Position numbers and translations under genes: made by a program. The notes beneath the pieces were generated by a model. It was not told the DNA's origin. It ran no database searches and was given only the letters and a program-made list of their open reading frames with translations. A DNA stretch of 28,772 nt, from positions 3,365,259 through 3,394,030 of the forward strand of contig FN649726.1 of assembly GCA_000310025.1 (NCBI GenBank). The letters run 5' to 3'. This document shows, in pieces, positions 6,101-9,100 of this stretch. This DNA is from Ectocarpus siliculosus (Eukaryota; Sar; Phaeophyceae; Ectocarpales; Ectocarpaceae). How positions within the stretch are numbered: position 1 is the stretch's first letter; each line of letters starts with the position of its first letter.

Positions 6101-9100
6101 CCACCGCGTCCGCTCTAGCTTTAAGCCTCTCCCTGGCCTCCTCCACGACACGCCACGCTCGCTCCGCTCTTTCGCGACGAAGGGCGTCCGATGCGGAGCT
6201 CGATTCCGACACGGTGCTCCTGCTATCGACGGTGGACATCTCGCGGAACGTGAAACCGCCGCCGCTGCCATTCGCCGATTCCTCCTCCTCGGACTGGACC
6301 GATCCGACACCAACGACACCTCCACCGCCGCCGGATCTACCGACTACTCCTGGGGGCAGGAGCAACTCGCCGCCCGGCGCCGTCCCCAACAGTGGAGACT
6401 GTAGGCCGACGAACAAGTTTAAGCTTCGTCCACCGCAGGTACCGCCGGTGCCGCCGCCGTCGCTGCCTACCCACCCGCCGCTCCCGCGCACGAAGCCGGC
6501 CACGGCGCCCCGTCTGGTCGGCCGCGCGGGCGGCACCACCTTCGCAGGCGACGGCAACAGAAAAGACCGCACGGACCCGTCGGGTTCGGTTGGGCTTGTC
6601 TCGGCAAGGCTGTCGAACCGAGGGAAGGCACGCGGCTCATCCTCCTCCTCTTCCTCTTCCAAGCAGCCCCCCCCGCCTTCTTCGCCATTCTCGCTAGCGA
6701 CGACGACAACCCCGCTGCCGATACCATTACCGTCGCTTTGGTCACTTTGAGAAGGAGGCGACAAGTGTTGCGCGCTTTCCTCCGCCGGGACGAGGAGGAA
6801 GTCGCTGGTGCCGTCTTGCGTCCTCGATCTTACGCGAGGCGGGGAGCGGTGGGTTCCGCCGCCGCCAAGCGGCCGCCCCACCCCGATTCTCGCCGCATCG
6901 CCGCTTGCCAATGGCAGTGTTGTCGCCCTCAGCCGGTCTGTCTCGCGCTCCCTGTACGGATTCGTCTTGGTGGTTCGGTGGTCGCCGCACGGCGCCCCTC
7001 TCCTGCTTACTTGACCGTGTGCGTACCCGGTCGCGACCCTCTCGAAGAATATTACTCGATCGTCGTCTGCGCAGCCCCCCTCGGACGATGAGGAGGAGGA
7101 GTAGGAGGGGGAGGAGGAGGAGGAAGACGACGCCGGAGAAGAGGACGACAGAGTCATCCCGTCGTTGTCATCGTTGTCGTTGCCGCTCTCGTTGCTGGTC
7201 GACGACGCTGTCACCTCCAGCAGCGGCGTCCGGCGGGGCTCGCTGCGGCACCCTCCTTCCGTGGTCGCCCCGTCCTCCTCTTCCTCTTTCGGGCACAGCC
7301 GTGACGACTGCAGGCTGGCGGCATCAAGGCGGGCAACGTCGTCGTTTTCATCGTCGTCACCGGGCACGGCGGAGCCGGCGCCGGCGCCGGCGCCGCCTTT
7401 GGCATCTAGGCCGTGATCCTCCTGTCCTCCGACGCTGTCGTCGTCGCGGCCGTCACCTTCCTCCTCCTCCTCATCGTCGCCGTAGTGGTCGGAGTCAGAC
7501 TCGGACGAAAAGGATGCCGATGAGCAGGCGGCGGCCGCGGCTGCGGCCGTCTTGAGCGGGAGGGCGGCGGCACCGCTGACGCTAGGGCCGACATGCTGCT
7601 GCTGCTGCCTCGGCCGTGGGCACTGACGCTGAAGCCGCTTCTTTGGGTGCAGCGTGAGGTTGGCCCCGCCCGCCTGGAAGTGGTCGATCTCCTTGGCGAT
7701 GAGCTCTTTCAGCCTCGATCGGGGGAACCCCTTCTTCTCGAACTCGAACTCAAGGCCGGCGGCCGCGGGGGCGACATCGAGAGAGGCCCTCTCCCTGGGA
7801 GACGACGAGTTTGACATGAGGGAAAAGGGGGACGGAAAGATGGCTATCAGATGTAACGCGTGTGTGAGTGAGGTGGGTAAGATCTGGTGGTTAGTGTGTA
7901 CCACCAGGGGCGGGGGGTTCTTAACACGAGGATGAACTACGGTGCGGACATGGTATCATAGCGAGCAGGGAAGAGCCTTGCTCTCATATACTTCGGTAGC
8001 CGAGTTAAGCCTCCTTTTCGTTGCGTTGTCGCCACCGATCCACACACGCTCTGCAACCCCCCCCTCCCGCTTGCGCACACACCTCAACTGGTCGAAGAAC
8101 GGGTGGCGTAGGGCCTCCCGCGGCGTGAAGCGCTTGACCGGGTCCAGCAAGAGGAGGCCCTTCAGCAGAGACGCGGCGTCGGCCGGGATGCCCGGAAGCA
8201 CTTCCGTGAAAGGAACCGCGGCCTTCCCGTCCAGCTTGTCCAAGAACTTGCGGGCCTGTGCCCCCCTGATGTGAGCCACCTCCTCCGGGGCCGGCGCGCC
8301 CAGGACGTCGAAGATGAGGGAGAGCTGGTTCACGAAGCTCGAGCCTGTCAAAAAAGTTTTGTTTTTTTTTGCCAGCCAGCGGTTATTGGTTTGGTTTGAT
8401 TTGGTAGGAGTTCGCACAGCAGGAACCACGCCGGGGTTGAGGGGTGTATCAGTGGAATACATATATATCCAGGTCCTCATCTCCCCAGGAAGAAAGTACC
8501 CGTCACGTATGCACCGCTTGCGTTGTCAGCACTCTTACCGGGAAACAGCGGTCGGCGGCCGAGGAGCTCTCCGAAGATGCAGCCGACCGACCACAGATCC
8601 ACCGCAAAGCCGTAGAAGCCGTTTGGCGACAGCATCAGCTCCGGCGGCCGGTACCAACGGGTCACGACGTGCTGTTTGGGGGAAGATTGATGGTGGGGGT
8701 ACGTATGGGTGGAGACGGAGTTAACCAGGGTGAACGCACGAAACAAGAGCAATCAATGGAGGCATGGGAGAGCCTCAAGTTCGTAGACAGGCAGGCACAA
8801 AACACAAACACGTCCAGAAACGTACGACGAAAGTTCCGGACGTTTAGTTTGTAACAGCGTCTACGGCAAGCAAAGCATCGTGTTCCTGTTGAGCAAAAAA
8901 AAACAAACATCGTTTTGCTGTGTGGAGGAAGGGTTGAAGACCTCATTTCGGATGTACAAAACCCAAACTCAAAATCGATTTTTCCTGCACTTGTGCCGCG
9001 AAGAAACTCTCAAGTTCGTCCATAATTTGCATGGGGATAACCATGATCCCTCTCTCTCTCTCTCTCGCTCTCTTACCTCCGTCATGCCTTCCCCGTCTTG

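Follow-up and report, generated by a model that had tools for sequence, protein, structure and literature searches.

The TEH motif is not new in itself, being in print for Phytophthora infestans and wheat MAP kinases. In P. infestans two MAP kinases, PITG_01203 and PITG_15298, carry TEH, and a third carries TKH, a stramenopile-specific variant common to its oomycete and diatom orthologs (PMC3019232). In wheat, TEH was reported for one MAP kinase (PMC11013086). In a survey spanning 173 species of fungi and fungus-like organisms, only TEY is given for the 8 MAP kinases of P. sojae (PMC4769017), which conflicts with the P. sojae TKH ortholog reported in PMC3019232. A term search for TEH yielded no mention in PMC4363184, PMC4769017 and PMC6411719. 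The kinase described here resembles those of P. infestans as a stramenopile MAP kinase with a TEH loop. PITG_01203 has an N-terminal PAS domain, whereas none was found in the eight minus-strand open reading frames at or upstream of exon 1 of our gene, a range that ends short of distant exons.

Three solved MAP2 kinases, presumably all apicomplexan, carry TSH (3nie, 3n9x) or TGH (3rp9). They share with our kinase a TxH loop, a single Thr acceptor in the motif and an otherwise MAP kinase-like sequence, but the parallel to PfMAP2 drawn in an earlier note on this DNA is a loose one. All three retain the Arg of helix alphaC (CKRILREI), where the kinase described here and its two paralogs have His, and their gatekeeper is Leu instead of Met. 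Moreover, the loop of PfMAP2 is extended by an insert of about 26 residues, and the orthologs of PfMAP2 have a long one as well (PMC3239843). Such an insert is absent from our kinase, in which the distance from DFGLAR to the Thr, counted by eye, is 18 residues versus 13 in ERK5. PfMAP2 was ruled out as a close model, since the solved TSH and TGH kinases keep the alphaC Arg. PfMAP2 is reported to be phosphorylated and activated by Pfnek-1 (PMC3239843; in vitro, PMC7368081), and the STE group is largely missing in Plasmodium (PMC3239843).

Most MAP kinases, unlike most protein kinases, are not self-activating, and PMC10458722 describes the features preventing this as not clarified. In the same paper the alphaC Arg is called invariant in MAP kinases, the authors having been unable to find any member without it, and is proposed to be a latch against autoactivation. 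Upon its replacement by various residues, His included, ERK1/2 autophosphorylate spontaneously (PMC10458722). Since the words plant, protozoa and Plasmodium are absent from the main text of that paper, its survey may have omitted protists. An opposite role is also reported there: Hog1/p38 variants and JNK2 need the same Arg for autophosphorylation, so the effect of an Arg-to-His change is not certain outside ERK1/2 and Mpk1. Erk1 R84H is described as intrinsically active, oncogenic and independent of upstream activation (PMC12301236). In another study, a Met gatekeeper and a longer beta3-alphaC loop, once restored, sufficed for high basal activity (PMC6692128).

The TEH kinase gene and its two paralogs

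The window, i.e. the entire stretch of 28,772 nucleotides of Ectocarpus siliculosus contig FN649726.1 that was analyzed, contains on its minus strand a gene whose eight-exon model forms an open frame of 1,663 residues with 0 stops (Table 1). The spliced gene reads Thr176-Glu177-His178 with an intron exactly between Glu and His, both as claimed in the earlier note. This intron has good splice sites, the donor GTAAGA and the acceptor CAAACAG. Another acceptor or a cassette exon restoring the Tyr, the two findings that would have spoken against the TEH reading, have no candidate in the DNA. No alternative acceptor that is in frame and open was found, and of the 27 AG..GT cassettes (3-150 bases) that are open and in frame within the intron, none begins with Tyr. 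The single alternative in-frame donor, 69 bases further, would add 23 residues and place no Tyr right after Thr-Glu.

Table 1. Features of the TEH kinase gene in the window
Feature	Window positions	Strand	Remarks
Exon 1	13968..14110	-	ATG; N-lobe start through VAIKK
Exon 2	11060..11156	-	alphaC helix, whole helix within a single exon
His53 codon CAC	11141..11143	-	site of the MAP kinase alphaC Arg (ERK1 R84 / ERK2 R65)
Exon 3	10620..10691	-	hinge; codon 10667-10665 = gatekeeper Met89
Exon 4	9968..10067	-	alphaE through HRDLKP
Exon 5	9077..9195	-	GNILV, DFGLAR, activation loop as far as Thr176-Glu177; last codon GAG at 9077
Intron between Glu177 and His178	8672..9076	-	405 bases, phase 0
Exon 6	8539..8671	-	opens with His178 codon CAC, 8671-8669
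Exon 7	8083..8344	-	C-lobe, ERK5-collinear
Exon 8	3732..7794	-	degenerate CD site, L16-type extension, low-complexity tail of ~1,300 residues; 1,354 stop-free codons

The protein matched the Pfam Pkinase model with E=1.2e-61. MAPK7/ERK5 was the best PDB match (E=7.6e-81), followed by MAPK6 (MPK6), MAPK4 (MPK4), and MAPK3 and MAPK1 (ERK1/2), which supports the previous assignment to the MAP kinases. Residues 4-348 aligned to ERK5, with the C-lobe insert region and the C-terminal extension collinear. Judged by its sequence, the product is a MAP kinase, atypical at most since it has no TxY. With ERK5 it has in common the collinear C-lobe, the C-terminal extension and a long tail, but it lacks TEY; ERK5 itself carries a large C-terminal domain (PMC6692128). 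The tail derives from a single 4-kb GC-rich exon, is acidic, rich in Ser, Gly and Ala and of low complexity, and its 1,354 residues contain no Pfam family at E 0.01. It is probably coding, because the longest open frame in any frame of 300 second-order Markov sequences comprised 715 codons. A GTATGT donor sits after exon 8, and further exons are likely.

Searches of the own genome covered the 189-Mb assembly, from which 20 kinase loci were taken for comparison. The closest relatives of the window kinase are two genes on contig C481, L001 and L002. In L002 the TEH motif lies inside one uninterrupted exon (3684-3842), so that TEH cannot stem from a splice, base-call or assembly error; the motif of L001 is TET. 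The window kinase is one of three paralogs (TEH, TEH, TET) and no lone oddity. The TET paralog suggests loss of the Tyr, rather than gain of a His, as the common theme. When the genome was searched with the N-lobe exons of L002, 12 matches were obtained among the scored candidates, and clade exons came only from the three genes. Among viral contigs 9 stretches fitted the pattern and among contigs of prokaryote genomes 80, none of which was confirmed as a relative.

L001 and L002 are arranged head to head (G000:C481:13500-31500), with about 3 kb between their modelled start codons, and by eye further low-complexity tail exons are possible for both. C481 is a 212-kb contig that has EsV-1-7 motifs at 2197-2528.

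A tree was calculated from 15 rows, the three clade kinases and 12 TEY/TDY rows. The six reference rows consisted of five from the set ERK5, ERK1/2, MPK4, MPK6 and MPS1 and one ERK7-type kinase; species and names of the reference chains (MPK4, MPK6, MPS1, ERK7, PfMAP2, PbMAP2) are partly presumptive. Own-genome rows L003, L004, L005, L006, L009 and L013 were pieced together from HMM-matched exons with insertions dropped, which makes their spacing values unreliable, and in L004 and L013 the end of the C-lobe is missing. The window kinase, L001 and L002 were placed on one side of a 100/100 branch and the 12 TEY/TDY rows on the opposite side. This clade was recovered again after removal of the TxY columns. 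Its inner branching had a support of 80/55 and no settled order. ERK5 grouped outside the clade in the 15-row tree, and a profile built from the three members had ERK5 and MPK4 as top matches. The split of the window gene from the C481 pair is probably not recent, because most intron positions differ, the last one being common. Pairwise dN/dS values (NG86) were 0.19 for L001-L002, 0.11 for window-L002 and 0.25 for window-L001, with dS saturated at 1.5-3.2, and the three kinases look constrained.

Changed and conserved residues in the clade

At the alphaC site, four residues before the Glu (H53 in the window kinase), all three clade kinases have His and all 12 TxY rows have Arg. In the Tyr column of TxY the 12 comparison rows have Tyr throughout and the clade has H/H/T. 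The six reference rows thus combine TxY with the alphaC Arg, unlike the clade. The alphaC His is encoded within a single exon in each of the three genes. It occupies the same position as the His of ERK1 R84H and ERK2 R65H. These are laboratory and tumour variants that retain TEY, whereas the His of the clade is natural and paired with TEH or TET.

The two sites are among several changes in the clade. Among the 83 columns near-invariant in the 12 TxY rows, 66 were kept and 10 flipped in all three clade members. From 41 strictly invariant columns four were flipped in all three, namely, in window numbering, 45 (F to A/A/S), 53 (R to H), 61 (L to M) and 178 (Y to H/H/T). The alphaC Arg and the TxY Tyr make up two of these four by a post hoc count, and the chance figures for the flipped columns (0.013 and 0.007) are likewise post hoc.

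The catalytic Lys, the alphaC Glu, the Asp of DFG and each Arg in HRD, DFGLAR, TRW and WYR are intact in all three kinases. The statement of the earlier note that the catalytic residues are preserved is therefore correct for those examined, but not its restriction of the loss to the second phospho-acceptor. Besides the alphaC Arg, the Ala of APE is replaced by Pro (P186) in the window kinase, and the acidic CD docking residues (D-x-x-[DE]-E-P) are absent from both the window kinase and L001, with some of them preserved in L002; few of the comparison rows carry letters at this site.

All three clade kinases have a Met gatekeeper; the comparison rows have Y, E, Y, Q, F, L, S, S, T, F, S and L. 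The beta3-alphaC loop of the clade is one residue longer than that of ERK2. Together with the Met this matches the permissive inferred ancestral state in PMC6692128. The loop length is not special to the clade, because its spacing of 18 is also found in MPK4 and ERK5. Our ERK5 row has a Leu gatekeeper, whereas PMC6692128 has Met kept on the ERK5 branch.

Proposed activation through a single threonine

As the most likely reading, to which we give slightly less than an even chance, the altered residues suggest that the clade comprises single-Thr, largely self-activating ERK-type kinases that are uncoupled from Tyr-based control. Two devices which hold MAP kinases off until a MAP2K acts would have been lost together, the loop Tyr (His/His/Thr) and the alphaC Arg latch (His in all three). 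Dual Thr/Tyr phosphorylation of the window motif is impossible because the Tyr is absent. Thr176 is the only acceptor left in this motif; the TET paralog L001 has a second Thr. With His as the second phospho-acceptor, activation via Thr alone would follow, as had been proposed from the loop. Thr176 would be the one motif residue phosphorylated for activation, most likely via autophosphorylation, and loss of the alphaC Arg may offer the kinase a route to its phosphorylated state. Neither the Tyr-first MAP2K step nor dual-specificity phosphatases starting at pTyr would have much control over such kinases. The long C-terminal tail or kinase abundance might serve as a brake.

Data on yeast Slt2 bear on this reading from both sides. 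Among the mono-phosphorylated forms of Slt2 the pThr form is the active one, and MAP2Ks phosphorylate the Tyr first. Residual T190 phosphorylation of Slt2 Y192F is the same after deletion of MKK1 or MKK2, and the phosphatase Msg5 does not act on it (PMC7866135). This behaviour of MAP2K and Msg5 argues that a Tyr-less kinase would be poorly handled by the usual activator and phosphatase. On the other hand, Slt2 without the Tyr has lower activity and is rarely phosphorylated at the Thr (PMC7866135), and the activity of ERK2 in its mono-phosphorylated form is 10- to 100-fold lower (PMC3100106). Both count against self-activation. So does, as a real caveat, the requirement of Hog1/p38 variants and JNK2 for the alphaC Arg, even though the clade matches ERK-type kinases best.

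It is possible, although we consider it rather doubtful, that an upstream kinase phosphorylates Thr176 alone, either a MAP2K or an unusual activator like PfNEK-1, and that the His changes are merely tolerated. The phosphorylation of the TSH kinase PfMAP2 by Pfnek-1 provides a precedent. In addition, a composed query for MAP2K-like loop exons had 19 matches in the same genome with E values of 1e-4 or below, the best being 1.1e-13; other STE-type kinases may be among these matches. In view of these exons a MAP kinase cascade is probably available in this genome, and as L002 also keeps part of the CD acids, the kinases may to some extent be coupled to a MAP2K. Yet the precedent does not extend to the alphaC Arg, which the three solved TSH/TGH kinases keep and the clade does not, and the docking acids are missing from the window kinase and L001. 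Relaxed control or weak function, with low constitutive activity or scaffolding and the missing residues reflecting lost regulation, appears unlikely to us. It would be in line with the simultaneous change of several MAP kinase landmarks (10 of 83 near-invariant columns), the Pro in APE and the degenerate CD site. However, dN/dS values of 0.11-0.25 over the kinase domain and catalytic residues intact in three genes argue against this, and the apparently decayed kinase locus L014, in which HRD and DFG are broken, looks different.

An intron interrupts the window motif and CAC differs from TAC in one base, so a His arising from a wrong splice junction, a sequencing error or mis-assembly deserves consideration. 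Given the single-exon TEH of L002, the alphaC His lying within a single exon in each gene of the clade and the lack of a Tyr-bearing cassette or in-frame alternative acceptor, such an artefact is highly improbable and was rejected as far as the DNA allows.

A broader proposal can be made, though tentatively and with somewhat less confidence than an even chance would express. A natural MAP kinase subfamily in which the Tyr was lost jointly with an alphaC Arg supposed to be universal would be a self-activating single-Thr kinase like tumour-associated ERK1 R84H, tolerated since Tyr-dependent activation and shut-off have been discarded. Among the matches listed in the open-access literature there was no natural clade under constraint that had lost both the Tyr and the alphaC Arg, and those on MAP kinase loops of brown algae and stramenopiles contained nothing on the three-kinase clade. 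A natural clade without Arg latch and Tyr offers a ready test, as putting in the Arg and/or the Tyr should lower self-activation. Should the oomycete TEH kinases share the alphaC change, this would point to an old stramenopile class.

Further kinase loci and other genes

Eleven of the 20 kinase loci are MAP kinase-type by loop and HMM, and the window gene adds a second TEH to this set. The loop regular expression matched 18 of the 20 loci; in the other two, L013 and L014, the loop was read manually. TEY is found in L003, L004, L005, L009 and L013, and TDY in L006 and its near copy L007, besides TEH in L002 and TET in L001. The TEY motif of L003 is also split by an intron and was read from the DNA. 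Nine other loci (L010-L012, L015-L020) are presumably CMGC kinases of other types; three of these apparently non-MAPK loci (L011, L012, L020) also have TEY or TDY.

L006 (C4:4342500-4348500) and L007 (C2:7146000-7151500) are nearly identical ERK7-type TDY kinases with the same reading of the activation loop; no N-lobe match was found for L007 in this stretch. Two MAP kinase-type loci, L008 and L014, are apparently decayed. L014 (G000:C16:1281000-1287000, minus strand) has HQG in place of HRD, DFE in place of DFG and no readable TEY across the loop intron. It is apparently a pseudokinase or a decaying copy of an L003-like gene. L008 (C2:7838500-7843500) is a MAP kinase-like remnant (QDCDMKPANIL, VDVGTRWYRAPE) beside a putative reverse-transcriptase fragment.

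Brown algae have a greatly enlarged set of EsV-1-7 motifs. At least 150 of these cysteine-rich motifs lie above the Pfam cut-off in this genome (150 of 880 candidates were scored and all match), compared with none in 14 control genomes, the named ones of which are prokaryotes. On the plus strand of the window, opposite to the kinase gene, a Sas10 C-terminal domain (21142-22521, E=5.5e-14) marks a ribosome-biogenesis gene of the UTP3/SAS10 type, and exons of an M17 cytosol aminopeptidase are located at 27324-28735.
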